From the NCBI GenBank assembly GCA_017538995.1, contig JAFYHV010000102.1:1-38262 (forward strand): a DNA stretch of 38,262 nucleotides. Direction: 5' to 3'. The notes below the pieces were generated by a model, which searched no databases, was not told where the DNA came from, and worked only from the letters and a program-made list of their open reading frames with translations. This DNA is from Lachnospiraceae bacterium (GTDB lineage: Bacteria > Bacillota > Clostridia > Lachnospirales > Lachnospiraceae). Shown here piece by piece: positions 3,278 through 10,486 of this stretch (position 1 is its first letter; each line of letters opens with the position of its first letter). The translations under genes and the position numbers were made by a program.

Positions 3278-4882
3278 ATGAGACTTCATTTTATCGGGGC
3301 GGATCACGAGGTAACCGGAAGCTGTCACTGCATAGAAGCATGCGGCAAATGGATTCTGGTTGACTATGGTATGGAGCAGGGTATTAATGTTTATGAAAAT
3401 GCCGAGCTTCCCTGCGCGGAGTGCGATATAGATTATGTTTTTCTTACGCACGCGCATATTGACCATACGGGACTTCTGCCTCTTTTATATTCCAAGGGAT
3501 TCAAAGGAAAAGTCATTGCTACCGAAGCTACGAGAGACCTATGCAGTATAATGCTTCGTGACTGTGCACACATTCAGATGCAGGAAGCAGAATGGAAGAG
3601 TAGGAAAGCTAAAAGAGGCGCAAAGGACTTTGATGTTAAACCGCTTTATACAATGGAAGATGCAGAAGGAATCATTCGTAAAATTCTTCCGTTTGCATAT
3701 AACGCAGAATACGATCTCTGTGAAGGTATATCATTCAGATTTACCGATGTTGGGCATCTTTTAGGATCTTCAAGTATCGAAATCTGGATTACCGAAATGG
3801 GTATTACCAAGAAGATTGTTTTCTCGGGAGATTTGGGAAATGTAAACGATCCGATTTTAAAAGATCCGACATACACCGATGAAGCCGATTATGTAGTAAT
3901 GGAATCCACATACGGCGACAGATATCACTCAAAAGATCAGCCTGATTATGTCAAAGAACTTGCCAATATAATTCAGACAACCTTTGACAGAGGCGGTAAT
4001 GTTGTTATTCCTTCTTTTGCGGTCGGCAGAACGCAGGAAATGCTTTATTTCCTCCGTCAGATTAAAACCGAAAAGCGCATACAGGGCCATGATGATTTTA
4101 AGGTATTTGTAGACTCACCTCTGGCGGTTGAAGCAACGGAAGTTTTCCAGAAAAACATTTACAACTGCTTCTCGGATCAGGCTATGGAACTTGTAAGACA
4201 GGGAATCAACCCCCTTGTATTCCCGGGACTTAATCTTACGATTACATCCGACGAATCCAAAGAAATTAACTTCGATTCAGAGCCCAAGGTAATTATTTCC
4301 GCATCAGGCATGTGTGAGGCAGGACGTATCAGACATCATTTAAAACACAACCTCTGGAGAGAAGAGTGTACGATTCTTTTCGTAGGTTACCAGGCTAACG
4401 GAACTCTCGGCAGAATGCTCGTAGACGGAGTTGAAGAAGTTAAACTTTTCGGTGAGCCGATTGAAGTAAATGCACATATCGAGGTTCTTGCCGGAATGAG
4501 CGGACATGCCGATAAGGGCGGACTTATTGACTGGGTAAGTGCTTTTAAGAGAAAGCCCAACAAAGTATTTCTTGTTCACGGTGAAGATTCCGTCTGCAAC
4601 ATGTTTGCGGACTGCTTAAGAGACGAATACGGATTCGATACATATGCTCCGTTCTCAGGTACCATCTATGATCTGATGGCCGACGAAATCGAATACGAGG
4701 CATATCCGAAGCCCGTGGAGAAAAAAGATCCTTCGAAGAGAGTTACCGAAGTATTTGCCCGCCTCCTTGCAGCTGGAAACAGACTCTTACAGGTTATCGA
4801 AAGAAACCAGGGCGGTGCAAACAAAGATCTTGCGAAATTCGCAGACCAGATCAACTCGCTGTGTGATAAATGGGACAGATAA
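3278..4882 (+). CDS. Beta-CASP metallo-beta-lactamase-fold nuclease (YSH1/COG1236 type)
   Basis: A 534-residue protein of the metallo-beta-lactamase superfamily with a beta-CASP insert, the group of RNases J and CPSF-73-like RNA-processing enzymes. Visible motifs are the zinc motif HAHIDHTG (residues 58-65), a downstream ligand in DVGHLLGSSSIE, the phosphate-ligand aspartate in FSGDLGN, the beta-CASP motif A glutamate in VMESTYGDR, motif B in SASGMCEAGRIRHH, and the terminal histidine motif in VFLVHGED preceded by GMSGHAD. It lacks the KH-like C-terminal extension expected of RNase J and instead ends in a helical tail of about 60 residues. A GGGGG ribosome site precedes the ATG. Likely an RNA exo- or endonuclease; substrate unknown. 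Confidence 0.85.
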   Translation: MRLHFIGADHEVTGSCHCIEACGKWILVDYGMEQGINVYENAELPCAECDIDYVFLTHAHIDHTGLLPLLYSKGFKGKVIATEATRDLCSIMLRDCAHIQMQEAEWKSRKAKRGAKDFDVKPLYTMEDAEGIIRKILPFAYNAEYDLCEGISFRFTDVGHLLGSSSIEIWITEMGITKKIVFSGDLGNVNDPILKDPTYTDEADYVVMESTYGDRYHSKDQPDYVKELANIIQTTFDRGGNVVIPSFAVGRTQEMLYFLRQIKTEKRIQGHDDFKVFVDSPLAVEATEVFQKNIYNCFSDQAMELVRQGINPLVFPGLNLTITSDESKEINFDSEPKVIISASGMCEAGRIRHHLKHNLWREECTILFVGYQANGTLGRMLVDGVEEVKLFGEPIEVNAHIEVLAGMSGHADKGGLIDWVSAFKRKPNKVFLVHGEDSVCNMFADCLRDEYGFDTYAPFSGTIYDLMADEIEYEAYPKPVEKKDPSKRVTEVFARLLAAGNRLLQVIERNQGGANKDLAKFADQINSLCDKWDR

Positions 4883-4984: not shown

Positions 4985-5752
4985 CTATTTCTTTTGCTGA
5001 TATACGGGATCGGCAGGATAGCCGCCTTTTAATTTCTGCATGCCGCGCTGGATGGCATCCTTTGAATTCTTCCAGTCGGCATCTTTATTTCTGTAGTCGT
5101 ATTTTTCGATGAGCCATGAAACATCTTCCTGAAGACGGTCCATGTTTTTCTGCATCAGAGGGAAGAGCATATTGAAGAATTCTTCCTTCTGCTTGTCGTT
5201 AAGTCTGGTTTCTGCGGCTTCGCACAGATCTCCGAAATGTGTGATGCAGAAGCCTTTTGAGTTTTTAATCTTTTCAACGAATTCATCGTCTTTTTTATAC
5301 ATTACAAAGAAAGTATCAAGATATCTTTCGTACATTTCGTTGAATGAATTGCAGATGTAGCAGGATTCTTCTTTGGCCTTGGCCCAAGCTGCAACGGAGT
5401 TTCTCATTTCAGTGCCCGAAGACTTGGTAAACTTCGCCATAAAAGGAGTTTTGCCGGGCTTGTAAGCATCCATGGCATCTTTCATCTGGCGGCGCATCTC
5501 CATGTAGTGTGTTTTTAGAATCCATGCATTGCCTAATGTATTGCCGTAATCAAACATCTTTTTGAAATGCATTTTGCAAAAGCCTGCTTTGTCTGTTTTT
5601 TCTCTCATATCGGCTTCCATATAGGATGAACCGGAGCCTAAAACCAGGTCCAAAAGATCCTGTTCAACATCTCTTTCCACGAAGCAGAAAGGACATTCAT
5701 CCTTGGCGTTTACGGCGTCGTTCATGGGTATTGTATATAATTTTTCTTTCAT
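4985..5752 (-). CDS. DUF6062 family Cys-rich protein (255 aa)
   Basis: The start is the ATG at 5752 because GGAGG lies 6 bases upstream on this strand; a longer reading to 5791 has no ribosome site. The N-terminus KLYTIPMNDAV followed by CPFC (residues 20-23) is what I associate with DUF6062 of Clostridia. Further Cys/His pairs are CKMH, CYIC and CITHF, so the protein may hold two metal sites or disulfides, each made of a CxxC and a CxxH half. It is soluble and rich in charged helices. Its function is not known to me. It has a divergent promoter region with hom and is convergent with the nuclease gene. Confidence 0.75.
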   Translation of the reverse strand: MKEKLYTIPMNDAVNAKDECPFCFVERDVEQDLLDLVLGSGSSYMEADMREKTDKAGFCKMHFKKMFDYGNTLGNAWILKTHYMEMRRQMKDAMDAYKPGKTPFMAKFTKSSGTEMRNSVAAWAKAKEESCYICNSFNEMYERYLDTFFVMYKKDDEFVEKIKNSKGFCITHFGDLCEAAETRLNDKQKEEFFNMLFPLMQKNMDRLQEDVSWLIEKYDYRNKDADWKNSKDAIQRGMQKLKGGYPADPVYQQKK

Positions 5753-5781
5753 AGGAAGCCTCCTGAAATTTTCTTTTATAC

Positions 5782-5811
5782 ATTTTAACAACCTGAGGGG
5801 ACAAGTGTCAA
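5782..5811 (-). promoter_or_regulatory. Predicted promoter for the DUF6062 gene
   Basis: On the minus strand TTGACA (5811-5806), an 18-base spacer and TAAAAT (5787-5782) preceded by TGT (extended -10) lie about 30 bases before the start codon at 5752. The -35 box lies inside the TGTCAAAC repeat described separately. Confidence 0.55.
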
Positions 5812-5838
5812 ACTTGTTTTCAACTTGTCAAACACTTG
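5802..5838. promoter_or_regulatory. Candidate operator between divergent DUF6062 and hom promoters
   Basis: TGTCAAAC occurs at 5806-5813 and again at 5826-5833, exactly 20 bases apart, about two helical turns. The block is also bounded by an inverted pair CAAGTGT (5802-5808) and ACACTTG (5832-5838). The repeats coincide with the -35 boxes of both divergent promoters, so a bound regulator would affect both. Confidence 0.35.
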
Positions 5839-5853
5839 CAAAAATGTTATAAT
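5825..5853 (+). promoter_or_regulatory. Predicted promoter for the hom gene
   Basis: TTGTCA (5825-5830), a 17-base spacer and a perfect TATAAT (5848-5853) with a TGT extension just upstream. The hom start codon is about 42 bases further on. Confidence 0.75.
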
Positions 5854-5894
5854 TTCTGTTGTTTTGGCATTATTTTGTCATAAAGGAGATAGTT

Positions 5895-7103
5895 ATGATA
5901 AGTGTTGCTGTTATGGGATACGGCACTGTCGGCAGCGGTGTTGTGGAAATAATCGACAAAAACAAAAAAGAGATAAACGAGAAAGCCGGCGATGAGGTAT
6001 CTGTCAAGTACATACTTGATTTAAGAGATTTCCCGGGCGATCCTCATCAGGACAAATTCATAAAAGATTACAAGATTCTCGTGGATGACCCCGAAGTGGA
6101 TATCGTTGTAGAAGCTATGGGCGGAATCGGAACTGCATATAAATTTACCAAGGAAGCACTCCTTGCAGGGAAGAGTGTGTGTACATCCAATAAGGCTGTA
6201 GTGGCAGAGCACGGCCCTGAGCTTCTTAAAATTGCAAAAGAAAATAACTGTACATATATTTTTGAAGCCAGCGTAGGCGGCGGTATTCCCATCATCAGAC
6301 CGCTTCACACAAGCTTCACCGCAGAAAAAATCGAAAGCATTACAGGTATCTTAAACGGTACGACGAACTATATGCTTACGAAGATGGATGAAGAGAACTG
6401 CGATTATGACGAAGTGCTTAAGGAAGCACAGGCTAAGGGTTATGCCGAGCAGAACCCCGAAGCAGACGTATGCGGATACGACGCATGCAGAAAGATTGCA
6501 ATCCTCACATCTTTAAGCTGCGGCAAGACTGTTCATTATCAGGATATCCGCACGGAAGGTATCACAAATATCGACAAGGCGGATTTTGAATATGCCAAGA
6601 AACTTAATTCTTCTATTAAGCTTCTCGGTTTAAGCCGTATGGAAAACGGAAAGTGTTTATGTATCGTTGCTCCTTTTATGGTAAATGAAAAACATCCTCT
6701 TTCCATGGTTCGTGGCGTATTCAATGCAATTATGGTAAAAGGAAACATGGTCGGCGATACACTCTTTTATGGTCAGGGCGCAGGCAAACTTGCAACTGCA
6801 TCCGCAATTGTGGCTGATATCGTAGACTGTGCTGTAAATAAGGGGAAAACAATCGAATGTCTCTGGAAGGATGAAGATGCTATCCTCGCCGATGACAGCG
6901 AAAAATACTTCAGTTATTTCGTTCGTGTAAAGAAGGATTCTTTCGAAGAGATTTCAAAGAGCCTTCAGGCGGAAAAAGTTCTTGATTCGGAAAATGAAGA
7001 AATCGGTTTTGTAAGCAAAAAGATTTCCGAAGAAGAATTCCTTAAAATCAAAGACAATTACGAAGCAGCGATAATCAATTACATTCGTATTTTAGACTGT
7101 TAA
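5895..7103 (+). CDS. hom: Homoserine dehydrogenase
   Basis: Reduces aspartate semialdehyde to homoserine with NAD(P)H, the branch point to threonine, methionine and isoleucine. The ATG at 5895 follows AAGGAGAT by 5 bases; upstream in-frame codons have no ribosome site and lie in the promoter. The 402-residue product has the nucleotide-binding GYGTVGSG at residues 8-15, TSNKAVVAEHG carrying the catalytic-region lysine, GGGIPIIRP and ILNGTTNYML of the substrate domain, and ADVCGYDACRKIAIL with the second conserved lysine. The tail after about residue 350 (FSYFVRVKK...) looks like a short ACT domain, as in feedback-regulated forms. It is followed 30 bases later by the ApgM-like gene and then lysC. 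Confidence 0.93.
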   Translation: MISVAVMGYGTVGSGVVEIIDKNKKEINEKAGDEVSVKYILDLRDFPGDPHQDKFIKDYKILVDDPEVDIVVEAMGGIGTAYKFTKEALLAGKSVCTSNKAVVAEHGPELLKIAKENNCTYIFEASVGGGIPIIRPLHTSFTAEKIESITGILNGTTNYMLTKMDEENCDYDEVLKEAQAKGYAEQNPEADVCGYDACRKIAILTSLSCGKTVHYQDIRTEGITNIDKADFEYAKKLNSSIKLLGLSRMENGKCLCIVAPFMVNEKHPLSMVRGVFNAIMVKGNMVGDTLFYGQGAGKLATASAIVADIVDCAVNKGKTIECLWKDEDAILADDSEKYFSYFVRVKKDSFEEISKSLQAEKVLDSENEEIGFVSKKISEEEFLKIKDNYEAAIINYIRILDC

Positions 7104-7133
7104 CAGGTCTTTAGTTTTTGACAGGTAGTAAAC

Positions 7134-7907
7134 ATGAAGTATGTAGTTATAATTTGTGACGGTATGTCGGATGAACCTCTTGAAGAGCTTGGCGGAAAGA
7201 CTCCTCTTTTTGCAGCCAAGACTTCGCATACCGATACACTTGCAAGGGTTTCGGAGTTAGGCATCGTTCATACAATTCCCAAGGGAATGGATGCCGAATC
7301 CGCGACTGCAATTCTTTCTGTACTCGGATATAATCCCTCACTCATTGAAAATATATTAAAGGATGAACCTAGTGAAACATCCTTTGATTTTTATACTAAT
7401 ACGGGTAAAAAAGGCGCCATTGTCACAGCCGATGACAAAATAAAAGCTGTTGCGAAAAAAATAAATCTTTCCGTAATAGAAGCAGAAGGTGCGACAGGCG
7501 ATTTATCCACCAACTATGCCGGTAAAAAAGATGCGGCTGTAAAAGCATTCTTTGACGATGATATGGACCTTGTAATGATTCATGTCAAAGCACCCGGTGT
7601 GGCAGGCGAAAACAAGGATCTTGATAAAAAGATTTCCGCGATTGAAAGCCTTGATGCCTACATCGTAGGACCTCTGGTGGAAGAGATGCAGGGCAGGGAT
7701 GCTGAATTCAGACTCCTTTTAATGCCGGGGTATCCTACACCCGTCAGACTCGGAAGCAATTCCAAGGAAGCCGTTCCTTATCTTTTATACGATTCATCCA
7801 TGGAAGAGGACGGAGACCCTGTATTTTCGGAAAAAACAGCACTCGAGAAGGGCTTCTTTTATGATGAAGGATACCTTCTTTCCAATCATTTTTTGGAAGC
7901 AGAGTAG
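7134..7907 (+). CDS. Degenerate ApgM-type phosphoglycerate mutase homolog, probably catalytically inactive
   Basis: The 257-residue product matches the two ends of the archaeal-type cofactor-independent phosphoglycerate mutase family (about 400 residues), some members of which are proposed to serve as homoserine kinases beside hom. The N-terminus has CDGMSDEPLEELGGKTPL with the metal-binding Asp9 and the nucleophile region GMDAESATAILSVLGY with Ser56. After residue 70 about 140 family residues are missing, and the match resumes at SFDFY. In the C-terminal half, all expected metal ligands are changed: the family APDEAGH reads APGVAGE (153-159), the DH of DHPTP reads GY (199-200), and the later TH reads SN. 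The frame is intact and codon use ordinary, so it appears to be kept as a protein. A scaffold or regulatory role is inference only. Confidence 0.75.
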   Translation: MKYVVIICDGMSDEPLEELGGKTPLFAAKTSHTDTLARVSELGIVHTIPKGMDAESATAILSVLGYNPSLIENILKDEPSETSFDFYTNTGKKGAIVTADDKIKAVAKKINLSVIEAEGATGDLSTNYAGKKDAAVKAFFDDDMDLVMIHVKAPGVAGENKDLDKKISAIESLDAYIVGPLVEEMQGRDAEFRLLLMPGYPTPVRLGSNSKEAVPYLLYDSSMEEDGDPVFSEKTALEKGFFYDEGYLLSNHFLEAE

Positions 7908-7914
7908 TTTTTTG

Positions 7915-7943
7915 TTGAAAAATGGATTAAATGGAATTAAAAT
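7915..7943 (+). promoter_or_regulatory. Predicted promoter for lysC
   Basis: TTGAAA (7915-7920), a 17-base spacer and TAAAAT (7938-7943) lie 43 bases before the lysC start. lysC can therefore be transcribed apart from hom and the ApgM-like gene. No lysine riboswitch fits in the short leader. Confidence 0.65.
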
Positions 7944-7985
7944 AGTGATGTTTTGGGGATAAAATCTTAACTCAAGGAGGAAAAA

Positions 7986-9194
7986 ATGTTAGTCGTTAAG
8001 AAATTTGGCGGTACATCTGTTGCCAACAAAGAGAGAATCTATAACGTAGCTCGTCGCTGTATTGAAGATTACAATGCAGGTAATGATGTAGTAGTTATTC
8101 TTTCGGCAATGGGAAAGATGACCGACGAACTCATTGAAAAAGCAAAAGATATTAATCCCAACCCATCCAGAAGAGAGCTTGATATGCTCCTTACAGTAGG
8201 CGAACAGACAAGCGTTGCTTTGATGGCTATGGCGATGGCAAACCTTGGCGTACCTGCAATCAGCTTAAATGCTTTCCAGGTGTCCATGCATACAACTTCC
8301 AATTACGGAAATGCAAGACTTAAAAGAATCGATACCGAAAGAATTTCACACGAACTTGAAAGCCGTAAGATTGTTATCATCACAGGTTTCCAGGGCGTAA
8401 ATAAATACGACGATTATACCACTCTCGGAAGAGGCGGTTCAGATACAACTGCTGTTGCAATCGCAGCTGCACTCCGTGCAGACAAGTGCGAAATTTACAC
8501 AGACGTTGACGGTGTATACACAGCAGACCCGAGAATTGTTAAGAAAGCAAGAAAGTTAAACGAAATCACATATGATGAAATGCTCGATCTTGCCACACTC
8601 GGTGCGGGAGTATTACACAACCGTTCAGTTGAAATGGCTAAGAAATACGGAGTTACTTTGGTAGTTCGTTCATCCCTTACAAGTGAGGAAGGAACAATCG
8701 TTAAGGAGGATGTTAAAGTGGAAAAAATGCTTGTTAGCGGCGTAGCCGTAGATAAAAGTGCTGAAAGAATTTCAATCATCGGTCTTGAAGATAAGCCCGG
8801 TACTGCATTCAGAGTATTCGATGCTCTTGCAAAGGCAAATGTAAACGTAGATATGATCTTACAGTCTGTAGGTCGTGACAATACAAAGGATATTTCATTT
8901 ACTGTTGACGGAAACTTCGGTGAAGATGCTCTTAAGGTCCTTGAAGAGAATCAGGCAAGACTTAAATATCAGAACATCGAAATGGAAAAGAACGTTGCAA
9001 AGGTATCAATCGTTGGTGCCGGCATGATGTCTAACCCCGGTGTTGCTGCAAAGATGTTTGAGTGCCTCTACAACGAGCACATCAACATCAAGATGATTTC
9101 AACTTCCGAAATCAGAGTAACAGTTCTTATCGACGTAAATGATGCAGAGAAAGCAGCAAATGCTATTCACGACATCTTCGGTCTTGATGAATAA
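7986..9194 (+). CDS. lysC: Aspartate kinase
   Basis: Phosphorylates aspartate, the first step to lysine, threonine and methionine. AAGGAGG lies 5 bases before the ATG. The 402-residue length and layout fit the class with separable regulatory subunit: kinase motif KFGGTS at residues 6-11, TGFQG, TTLGRGGSDTTAVA in the catalytic core, EIYTDVDGVYTADPR, and two ACT domains from about residue 265 (ISIIGLEDKPGTAFRVFDAL) and 340 (VSIVGAGMMSNPGVAAKMFE) to the end. An internal AAGGAGG before GTG codon 245 suggests that the ACT part is also made alone (separate entry). The gene is followed by a bidirectional terminator. Confidence 0.95.
   Translation: MLVVKKFGGTSVANKERIYNVARRCIEDYNAGNDVVVILSAMGKMTDELIEKAKDINPNPSRRELDMLLTVGEQTSVALMAMAMANLGVPAISLNAFQVSMHTTSNYGNARLKRIDTERISHELESRKIVIITGFQGVNKYDDYTTLGRGGSDTTAVAIAAALRADKCEIYTDVDGVYTADPRIVKKARKLNEITYDEMLDLATLGAGVLHNRSVEMAKKYGVTLVVRSSLTSEEGTIVKEDVKVEKMLVSGVAVDKSAERISIIGLEDKPGTAFRVFDALAKANVNVDMILQSVGRDNTKDISFTVDGNFGEDALKVLEENQARLKYQNIEMEKNVAKVSIVGAGMMSNPGVAAKMFECLYNEHINIKMISTSEIRVTVLIDVNDAEKAANAIHDIFGLDE
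8703..9194 (+). CDS. lysC: Candidate internal start for a separate aspartokinase beta subunit
   Basis: Inside lysC a perfect AAGGAGG (8703-8709) is followed 8 bases later by an in-frame GTG (8718, codon 245), with an ATG three codons further (8727). Starting at 8718 gives a 158-residue protein consisting of just the two ACT domains. Bacillus subtilis aspartokinase II and the Corynebacterium glutamicum enzyme are known to make an alpha2-beta2 complex from such nested in-frame starts at nearly the same place. The interval given includes the ribosome site; the coding part begins at 8718. Confidence 0.6.
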   Translation, partial: KEDVKVEKMLVSGVAVDKSAERISIIGLEDKPGTAFRVFDALAKANVNVDMILQSVGRDNTKDISFTVDGNFGEDALKVLEENQARLKYQNIEMEKNVAKVSIVGAGMMSNPGVAAKMFECLYNEHINIKMISTSEIRVTVLIDVNDAEKAANAIHDIFGLDE

Positions 9195-9216
9195 TTAGTA
9201 TTTATCATAAAATTAA

Positions 9217-9255
9217 AACTGCCCGACACAACTTTGTGCCGGGCAGTTATTTTTT
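9217..9255. terminator. Bidirectional terminator between lysC and the RHH gene
   Basis: AACTGCCCGACACA (9217-9230) pairs with TGTGCCGGGCAGTT (9235-9248) with one mismatch and a 4-base loop. A T-run follows on the plus strand and a T-rich stretch on the minus strand, so it can end both convergent transcripts. Confidence 0.85.
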
Positions 9256-9264
9256 GTTTAAAGC

Positions 9265-9456
9265 TTATTTCTGATCAGTACCTTTTCTCTTTTTAACTGC
9301 TTCTGAAAGGAGATATTCTATCTGACCGTTTATAGATCTGAAATCGTCCTCTGCCCATTTGGCAAGGTCGCTGTGCAAAGAAGGAGAAAGGCGAAGCAGA
9401 ATCTGCTTTTTTTCCAAAGCGGAATTATCTGTATTTTTTTTATCTGTATTTCCCAT
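9265..9456 (-). CDS. Ribbon-helix-helix (Arc-like) DNA-binding protein
   Basis: A 63-residue protein, MGNTDKKN..., whose C-terminal 40 residues fit a ribbon-helix-helix fold: a beta strand KQILLRLSP, helix SLHSDLAKWAEDDF, turn RSIN and helix GQIEYLLSEAVKKR. RHH proteins bind DNA as dimers through the strand, usually cooperatively on tandem short boxes. The start is the ATG at 9456, 6 bases after AGGTG; a GTG three codons earlier overlaps that site. It lies 37 bases after the SPFH gene in the same direction, so it is probably its operon partner and a candidate autoregulator acting on the TGATATCA boxes at 10567-10606. No toxin gene is adjacent, which argues against a toxin-antitoxin pair. Confidence 0.75.
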   Translation of the reverse strand: MGNTDKKNTDNSALEKKQILLRLSPSLHSDLAKWAEDDFRSINGQIEYLLSEAVKKRKGTDQK

Positions 9457-9493
9457 AATTTTCACCTTTTCCTAATTCAAAGGTTAACGCTGC

Positions 9494-10486
9494 TTAGTAA
9501 ATTGATCCGCTGTTAACGATGGGCTGAGCTTCCTTGTTGCCGCAAAGAACAACCATTAAGTTACTTACCATCTGAGCTTTTCTTTCATCGTCCAAATTTA
9601 CGATCTGGTTTTCAGAAAGCTGATCGATAGCCATTTCTACCATGCTTACAGCACCTTCAACGATTTTCTTTCTTGCTGCGATAATTGCAACTGCCTGCTG
9701 TCTCTGGAGCATAGCTGCTGCGATTTCTTCAGAATATGAAAGATGTGTGATACGTACTTCGATTACTTCGATACCTGCGTCAGCAACACGTGTCTGAAGT
9801 TCTTCTTTCATTCTGTCAGCAATTTCCTGTGATGAACCACGAAGTGTTTTCTCATCGATCCCGTCATTGTCATCCATATCGTCGTAAGGATAAAGTCTTG
9901 CAATATTTCTGATGGTAGAGTCGCACTGGATTGAAAGGAAGTTGTTGTAGTTTTCAACTGCGAATACGGCTCTTGTGGGATCTACGACTTTCCAGATAAC
10001 AACTGCACCGATGATGATAGGGTTACCGAGAATATCGTTAACTTTCTGTTTCTGGTTGTCGAGAGTTCTGACCTTCATTGATACTGTCTTTGAACCTACG
10101 GTAATTCTCTGGCCGTTGGGCTGTGTCACGGTTGTAAGTCCGGGATTGAATGCACTTGCAAAAGGATTTACAAGGAAGAAACCGGATTTCTTAATGGTTC
10201 CGTGATATTTACCGAAGAGTGTAAGTACCATTGCTTCATTGGGTTTAACTGTTTTAAGTCCTCCGAAGAGTACGCAGGAGATAATGAAGAATAATACGCA
10301 AAGTAAAATAATCAAAATTCCTACGATTGTGAAGTAGCTGCCTGCTGCGGCAAGTCCGCATCCTACGAAGAAGAAAGCAACTTCGATGCAAATAGCTATT
10401 ATATTTAAGAAGAGCATTAAGATTCCGGATGCCGGACGAAGTTCTCTCTCCTGAATTGTGTAATTGTTTTTGTTGAGTTTATCCAT
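9494..10486 (-). CDS. SPFH/band 7 domain membrane protein
   Basis: A 330-residue stomatin/prohibitin/flotillin/HflK-C family protein. Residues 20-75 hold two membrane helices (ASGILMLFLNIIAICIEVAF and SYFTIVGILIILLCVLFFII), after which the SPFH domain starts at VKPNEAMVLTLFGKYHGTIKKSGFFLVNPF. Typical features are the conserved strand KVRTLDNQKQKVNDILGNPI, FAVENY, and the coiled region with EEIAAAMLQRQQAVAIIAARK and IVEGAVSMVEMAI. Such proteins form large membrane rings and organise microdomains; the partner here is unknown. A GGAGG ribosome site precedes the ATG. First gene of a two-gene operon with the RHH protein. Confidence 0.85.
   Translation of the reverse strand: MDKLNKNNYTIQERELRPASGILMLFLNIIAICIEVAFFFVGCGLAAAGSYFTIVGILIILLCVLFFIISCVLFGGLKTVKPNEAMVLTLFGKYHGTIKKSGFFLVNPFASAFNPGLTTVTQPNGQRITVGSKTVSMKVRTLDNQKQKVNDILGNPIIIGAVVIWKVVDPTRAVFAVENYNNFLSIQCDSTIRNIARLYPYDDMDDNDGIDEKTLRGSSQEIADRMKEELQTRVADAGIEVIEVRITHLSYSEEIAAAMLQRQQAVAIIAARKKIVEGAVSMVEMAIDQLSENQIVNLDDERKAQMVSNLMVVLCGNKEAQPIVNSGSIY

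Follow-up and report, generated by a model that had tools for sequence, protein, structure and literature searches.

Between the genes for homoserine dehydrogenase (hom) and aspartate kinase (lysC) of a Lachnospiraceae bacterium lies a gene for a protein much shorter than its closest intact relatives, which raises the question of whether it is the decaying remnant of an enzyme or a protein kept for some other purpose. In the 38,262-nucleotide stretch of DNA that we analysed (hereafter, the window), a sequence-only reading had described this gene as keeping both ends of ApgM in a clean frame, with about 140 central residues gone, and had proposed a regulatory or scaffold role rather than decay. 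The locus comprises the following features.

4985..5752, minus strand: gene adjoining hom, for a DUF6062 protein (PF19538)
5825..5853, plus strand: promoter-like site upstream of hom (11 of 12 consensus positions; consensus match only)
5895..7103, plus strand: hom, homoserine dehydrogenase, 402 aa (PF00742, NF004976), ending 30 nt before the short gene
7134..7907, plus strand: short ApgM/ThrB2-derived pseudoenzyme gene (open reading frame with an ATG start, 257 aa, PF01676 match)
7915-7943: promoter-like site between the short gene and lysC (10 of 12 consensus positions; consensus match only)
7986..9194, plus strand: lysC, aspartate kinase (NF005155, TIGR00656, ACT domains), beginning 78 nt after the short gene
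9217..9248, minus strand: terminator-like hairpin after lysC (consensus match only)

Positions 5700-9500 contain 13 promoter-like sites, compared to a mean of 8.1 in shuffled sequences, and 2 terminator-like hairpins were found, compared to a mean of 3.0 in shuffles. Because a promoter-like site precedes lysC, co-transcription of the short gene with lysC is unproven. At the gathering score, Rfam models matched a single tRNA in the whole window, and no riboswitch at the hom cluster.

The frame has no internal stop, as had been read from the sequence. Residues 1-235 of its product match PF01676 with 88.6 bits (gathering cut-off 24.3), and the match to PF10143 is confined to model positions 1-33 of 170, so that the complete domain is missing. 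The score is below the cut-off for every NCBIfam model matched, including TIGR00306 (ApgM; 219.3 bits vs. 320) and TIGR02535 (207.3 vs. a curated cut-off of 446.3, which the full-length protein of the sister genome G403 exceeds with 491.5). The closest intact relatives have 401-402 aa, that is, approximately 144 residues more. In an alignment with full-length sequences both ends align, including to the solved ApgM enzymes (2zkt, 3kd8 and 3idd), and 139 columns that are filled in all 7 full-length sequences from the genus are empty in all 11 short forms, in agreement with the earlier estimate of the missing part. The borders of the excision coincide with the borders of the domain, such that the loss of PF10143 is clean, and a linker takes its place:

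7338..7385, plus strand: linker replacing the missing PF10143 domain, residues 69-84 (alignment with 7 full-length sequences from the genus and 9 from the family)

Judging from domain matches and alignment, the 257-aa protein is an ApgM/ThrB2-type (TIGR02535) protein minus the inserted PF10143 domain of approximately 140 residues. A search of the window genome for superfamily members found, besides the short gene, only GpmI and DeoB, and no full-length ApgM/ThrB2 paralogue.

The excision is accompanied by changes at the former active site, as follows.

7158..7160, plus strand: Asp9, former metal ligand; kept in the window protein, Glu in 3 of the 11 short forms
7299..7301, plus strand: Ser56, former phospho-serine position; kept in the window protein, replaced in 4 of the 11 short forms
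7596..7610, plus strand: residues 155-159 (GVAGE), the former D...H ligand motif, with both ligands lost (alignment)
7728..7733, plus strand: residues 199-200 (GY), the former DH ligand pair (alignment)
7758..7760, plus strand: Asn209, former His ligand (alignment)

Seven canonical residues, namely S56 and the positions D9, D155, H159, D199, H200 and H209, which we take to bind metal, are all present in 29 of 29 full-length sequences from outside the genus and in 7 of 7 from within it, and the full-length G403 protein shows the same ligand motifs when aligned to 2zkt and 3kd8. The window protein keeps two of the seven (D9 and S56) and has G155, E159, G199, Y200 and N209 at the others, so the replacement of all five C-terminal ligands that had been read from the sequence holds at each position; no short form keeps more than four. 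Among the 11 short forms, D9 is retained in 8, S56 in 7, D199 in 5, D155 in 2, H200 in 1, and H159 and H209 in none. The persistence of Asp9 and Ser56, correctly noticed in the window protein, does not extend to the clade as a conserved feature, given E9 in three short forms (G407, G397 and G416) and the replacement of S56 in four. The states at the other ligands differ as well: the G000 group has G155 and E159, and the short form of G420, with D9, D155, D199 and H200 still in place, carries F56, L159 and R209. Since ligand states differ within the clade, at least D9, S56, D155, D199 and H200 were eroded after the excision, and H159 and H209 may have been lost with it or before it. The short protein is thus a homologue without the conserved catalytic motifs, as a pseudoenzyme is expected to be.

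We searched 31 genomes of the genus for the gene and found matches in 20, of which 11 carry a continuous short form (this count includes the window copy), one (G424) carries the short form in two pieces, 7 carry a full-length gene, and one (G405) carries a full-length gene that is split over frames. Five relatives have short forms with 88-97% identity to the window protein, and the other five, which are deeper, have 54-60%. All 11 continuous copies are free of stops. The G424 gene is broken by contig ends, and because its N-terminal piece reads into an in-frame TGA near a contig end, one of the 12 copies cannot be counted as intact. The short form is unlikely to be an assembly artefact because it is carried by independent assemblies as well as by Lachnospiraceae bacterium G41, whose record is not labelled as a MAG. 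It is common to 11 of the 31 genus genomes, so a recent deletion in one strain is rejected, and the absence from all relatives that had been named beforehand as a sign of decay is not what was observed. Outside the genus, no short forms were found among the matches listed for 397 genomes of the family, 392 of the order and 391 of the class (overlapping draws); these matches include some shorter frames (e.g., G220, G782, G945, G665 and G688), and the two that were checked, in G706 and G503, run off contig ends. In G405, which is 70% complete, the full-length ApgM/ThrB2 gene (L142; G405:C16:3000-8000) lies in two overlapping frames, reflecting either decay or a sequencing error.

The search for short homologues beside hom and lysC, which had been suggested as a check, showed that the locus is kept. 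Each of the 11 continuous short copies directly follows hom, and 10 of them are directly followed by lysC (in G411 the contig stops short of lysC); the arrangement of the two G424 pieces is consistent with this order. Thus, the short gene has the threonine-pathway adjacency by which ThrB2 genes are recognised. A DUF6062 gene, 87.5-100% identical, neighbours hom at all 12 short-form loci and in G412. The remaining 11 genomes have no match to the gene, and in 9 of these hom is followed directly by lysC (the G421 contig ends after hom, and no hom was found in G410).

In a midpoint-rooted tree of 30 Hom proteins, all 12 short-form genomes fall on one side of a branch with support of 97/92, and G403 and then G412, both with full-length genes and intact active sites, are the successive sisters of this clade (99/97 and 100/99). 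Absence of the gene appears at two other places on the drawn tree. Because all short-form genomes form one clade, a single excision of PF10143 is the best reading. That G403 and G412 are highly identical to the residues invariant in short forms is largely expected from descent. Among full-length sequences, these two share 8 unique residues, 4 of which are kept by all 11 short forms, too few to weigh.

To what extent is the short protein still under selection? Comparison of synonymous and non-synonymous changes, also suggested earlier as a check, points to purifying selection: the median dN/dS (NG86) is 0.112 across all 15 pairs of 6 close species, compared to 0.057 for Hom. When the window gene was evolved neutrally in 2000 simulated trials, the frame stayed intact in 1.3% at 0.25 substitutions per site, and no stop arose in 0.05% at 0.5 substitutions per site. 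Together with the stop-free copies, these values do not resemble a pseudogene, for which broken frames or a dN/dS near 1 would be expected; with its low dN/dS in one clade, the gene is kept by selection as a protein. The constraint on the short core is nevertheless weaker than that on the enzyme, because the ratio of core distance to Hom distance has a median of 1.89 in short forms (52 pairs) vs. 0.70 in full-length relatives (18 pairs), counting only pairs whose Hom distance is above 0.03. Hence constraint fell but is still strong, with 92 of 248 core positions invariant across the 11 short forms.

The distribution of this constraint along the protein has changed. Comparison of per-site variability with that in the 29 full-length sequences from outside the genus yields a rank correlation (rho) of -0.02 for the 11 short forms and 0.71 for the 7 full-length sequences from the genus, with a mean of 0.91 in control splits of the 29 sequences at random; for the six deep short forms, rho is likewise -0.02 (control mean 0.86). 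When the active-site and hinge stretches are set aside, the remaining 142 columns give a rho of 0.29 for short forms and 0.62 for the genus full-length sequences, and because a correlation of 0.29 persists there, much of the decoupling reflects relaxation at the old site. Part of the earlier conservation of the fold persists, with the old site released and other positions fixed: 25 of the 78 columns that are invariant in the family, and 66 of 169 that are variable, are invariant in the short forms. Given the low dN/dS of a protein whose site conservation no longer follows that of its family, it is the protein that is selected, not the old chemistry.

Within the short forms, conservation is lowest at the old ligand pocket. 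In a parallel sheet, the two ends of the strands lie on opposite faces, and in this fold the face after the strands carries the former active site. Short forms are invariant at 9 of the 47 positions in stretches after strands vs. 31 of 47 in the family, and at 21 of 39 vs. 4 of 39 in stretches before strands; these groups were chosen post hoc, after conservation was known, and the strands were taken from a weak structure model (pLDDT 55, pTM 0.62, 7 sequences), so that the structure prediction proposed earlier was obtained but at low quality. One of the stretches most variable in the family stands out:

7677..7700, plus strand: residues 182-189 (VEEMQGRD), with E183, E184, Q186, G187, R188 and D189 invariant in the 11 short forms

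H32, H46, H252 and K132 are likewise invariant in short forms at positions that vary in the family. Under the modelled topology, these patterns are a strong hint that invariance has shifted from the active-site loops to the strand ends on the other side. Constraint on that face already before the excision is weakly suggested, by the G403-G412 pair only (residual z 2.0, with 11 of 561 control pairs as high).

A further difference between the groups of genomes lies upstream of hom. Among 30 hom loci of the genus, 12 (6 in full-length and 6 in gene-less genomes) have directly upstream a gene for an ACT-domain protein (PRK04435), compared to 0 of 14 loci in the short clade, G403 and G412; the loci surveyed extend approximately 1.5 kb past the Hom domain match, and contig ends truncate a few of them. 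An example is:

L088:2475-2915, minus strand: ACT-domain gene (PRK04435)

From this distribution it is possible that the short form took over a regulatory role of the ACT-domain protein.

The product of thrC scores above the cut-off in 28 of the 31 genus genomes and in 9 of the 12 of the short clade; the three genomes in which it does not (G408, G419 and G424) are all short-form genomes, reflecting either incomplete assembly or loss of threonine synthesis, and G419 is 96% complete. As a replacement, a GHMP-type ThrB was rejected, with no match over the cut-off in 12 genomes (7 short-form genomes, the gene-less G120 and 4 of other genera), and so was an APH-type homoserine kinase, with none over the cut-off in the 31 genus genomes. 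The GHMP match in the window genome, found in the suggested search for an intact ThrB or ApgM, is IspE, as is that in G120 (the family-search classification covered these two of the twelve genomes). In the window genome, IspE (L074:236-1534, minus strand) is a protein of 433 aa with a C-terminal DUF1934 domain; in G120 (L115:585-1937, minus strand), IspE and DUF1934 are separate neighbouring genes. A second full-length match similar to shikimate kinase occurs in 12 of the 31 genomes, including 6 of the 12 short-form and 4 of the 11 gene-less ones, but such a kinase cannot be the common answer because G120 and G406 have only one match each. Other paralogues of the alkaline-phosphatase superfamily across the genus yielded nothing beyond partial or weak matches, and in 9 thrC neighbourhoods no kinase was recognised by eye. 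Two genomes without the gene, G120 and G406, have a listed completeness of 100% and retain hom and thrC; in G120, searched for both types, no GHMP or APH homoserine kinase passes the cut-off, and in G406, searched for the APH type, none does either. The genus is therefore very likely to have a homoserine kinase that these searches missed, a role that need not fall to the short protein.

Taken together, the earlier view that the gene is not decaying is well supported; retention under selection suggests a new, non-enzymatic job, and a regulatory or scaffold role for aspartate-family enzymes would be the most economical reading of the gene position and the relocated conservation. We slightly favour the explanation that the short form is a domesticated pseudoenzyme that works by binding and tunes Hom or LysC from the same cluster. 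A full-length ApgM/ThrB2-type gene between hom and lysC lost its PF10143 domain once, in the ancestor of the 12-genome clade, leaving the alkaline-phosphatase-type core; in this clade the metal and nucleophile positions have degraded differently by lineage while purifying selection persisted at the same locus. Under the favoured explanation, the core would act by binding rather than by phosphate transfer, presumably through the face opposite the former active site, formed by the stretches preceding the parallel strands (T35-R38, Y87-K92 and the EExQGRD loop), and the partner would be Hom or LysC, whose activity, stability or assembly would be tuned. Threonine synthesis would probably proceed via another homoserine kinase, which the gene-less relatives must also use. 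The absence of the gene from 11 genus genomes and the three short-form genomes without thrC above the cut-off count against this reading, as do the weaker constraint on the core, the residual correlation with the family outside the old site, the post hoc contrast between faces from a weak model, the TGA of G424 and the promoter-like site before lysC.

The same position beside hom and lysC, and the missing ACT-domain gene, which may point to a regulatory part being replaced, would also fit a core that senses rather than docks, binding threonine, lysine, O-phosphohomoserine or phosphate and signalling the state of the pathway, with the contrast between faces a by-product of folding; given that no part is less conserved than the old ligand pocket and that no new pocket was identified, we regard this as unlikely. 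Slow decay, in which the remnant stays in frame only because breakage would harm lysC expression by polarity, or because it folds harmlessly, is somewhat less likely still. The faster evolution of the core relative to Hom, the frame-split gene of G405, the 11 of 31 genomes without a match and the TGA in the G424 piece are all compatible with it, but polarity requires an open frame, not specific residues, and neither the dN/dS of 0.112 and the absence of stops from continuous copies nor the many invariant core positions, with charged residues fixed where the family varies, would be expected. Continued catalysis by migrated residues, as a homoserine kinase of a new type or another phosphotransferase, could draw on the invariant H32, H46, H252 and K132 and on the retention of thrC in most of the short clade in the face of missing GHMP and APH kinases. 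However, this kinase gap is not specific to the short form, because the gene-less G120 shows the same gap with hom and thrC kept (as does G406 with regard to APH), and the window protein has lost the substrate domain and every C-terminal ligand, so that we consider catalysis improbable. Finally, the clean excision at the domain borders could suggest a split enzyme whose excised domain is encoded elsewhere and reassembles with the core; this explanation is largely refuted, and its probability is close to nil, given that none of the 12 short-form genomes (incomplete assemblies) yielded the remainder of PF10143 and that the metal ligands are lost too.

The known system closest to the preferred reading by descent is TIGR02535/ThrB2 (BT2402 of Bacteroides thetaiotaomicron), which belongs to the same family and shares the neighbourhood with hom, whereas the short form has lost the substrate domain and the metal ligands; the same losses, of PF10143 and of the metal site, separate it from ApgM. 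PMC7311316 reports that BT2402, a TIGR02535 member, is required for growth when threonine is withheld and quotes a personal communication that it failed to rescue E. coli thrB; because of this failure, kinase activity is unproven even for full-length TIGR02535 proteins. The expectation that a homoserine kinase of this family should sit at the locus accordingly stands for the position beside hom and lysC but not for the kinase annotation, which is a proposal. ThrB2 appears by name in PMC9026213, whose available text counts 50 mostly clostridial human-gut genomes without ThrB or ThrB2, and a shikimate-kinase-like homoserine kinase is reported in the available part of PMC5764234.

Dead relatives that are kept and act on a pathway enzyme are described, in the portions available from PMC5201418 and PMC3663545, for the prozyme of trypanosomatid S-adenosylmethionine decarboxylase and for a dead paralogue of deoxyhypusine synthase. 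In those cases, as far as these sources go, the dead copy activates its own active paralogue, whereas the candidate partners of the short form belong to other families. A likeness within a bacterial amino-acid pathway is HisZ, in the accessible accounts a regulatory subunit of ATP phosphoribosyltransferase; its partner is proven, whereas Hom or LysC as partner of the short form is a candidate from synteny. HisZ is by origin a dead relative of histidyl-tRNA synthetase, and its fold is unrelated to that of the short form. Pseudoenzymes acting on pathway enzymes are thus already known, and no description of a short pseudoenzyme of the ApgM/ThrB2 family was found among the matches listed in literature searches that take in few papers from subscription journals.

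A genetic requirement without complementation of E. coli thrB (PMC7311316) raises the question of what TIGR02535 proteins do in threonine synthesis. A genus in which one and the same locus holds the full-length gene, the stripped form or neither is a natural experiment that can set the chemistry of the family against any other role, and it marks the genomes in which to look for a further homoserine kinase. A bolder and rather doubtful extension is that proteins of the ThrB2 family served the aspartate pathway in a structural or regulatory role, either alongside homoserine phosphorylation or in place of it, that the short form kept only that role and replaced the ACT-domain protein in its clade, and that the interface was already under extra constraint in G403 and G412; if true, this would help to explain why BT2402 is needed for threonine and yet does not rescue E. 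coli thrB.

Elsewhere in the window, the best NCBIfam match of the plus-strand frame at 3278-4882 is the type VII CRISPR Cas14 (MBL/beta-CASP) model, with 405.5 bits vs. a cut-off of 800, and its product is probably an ordinary beta-CASP relative.
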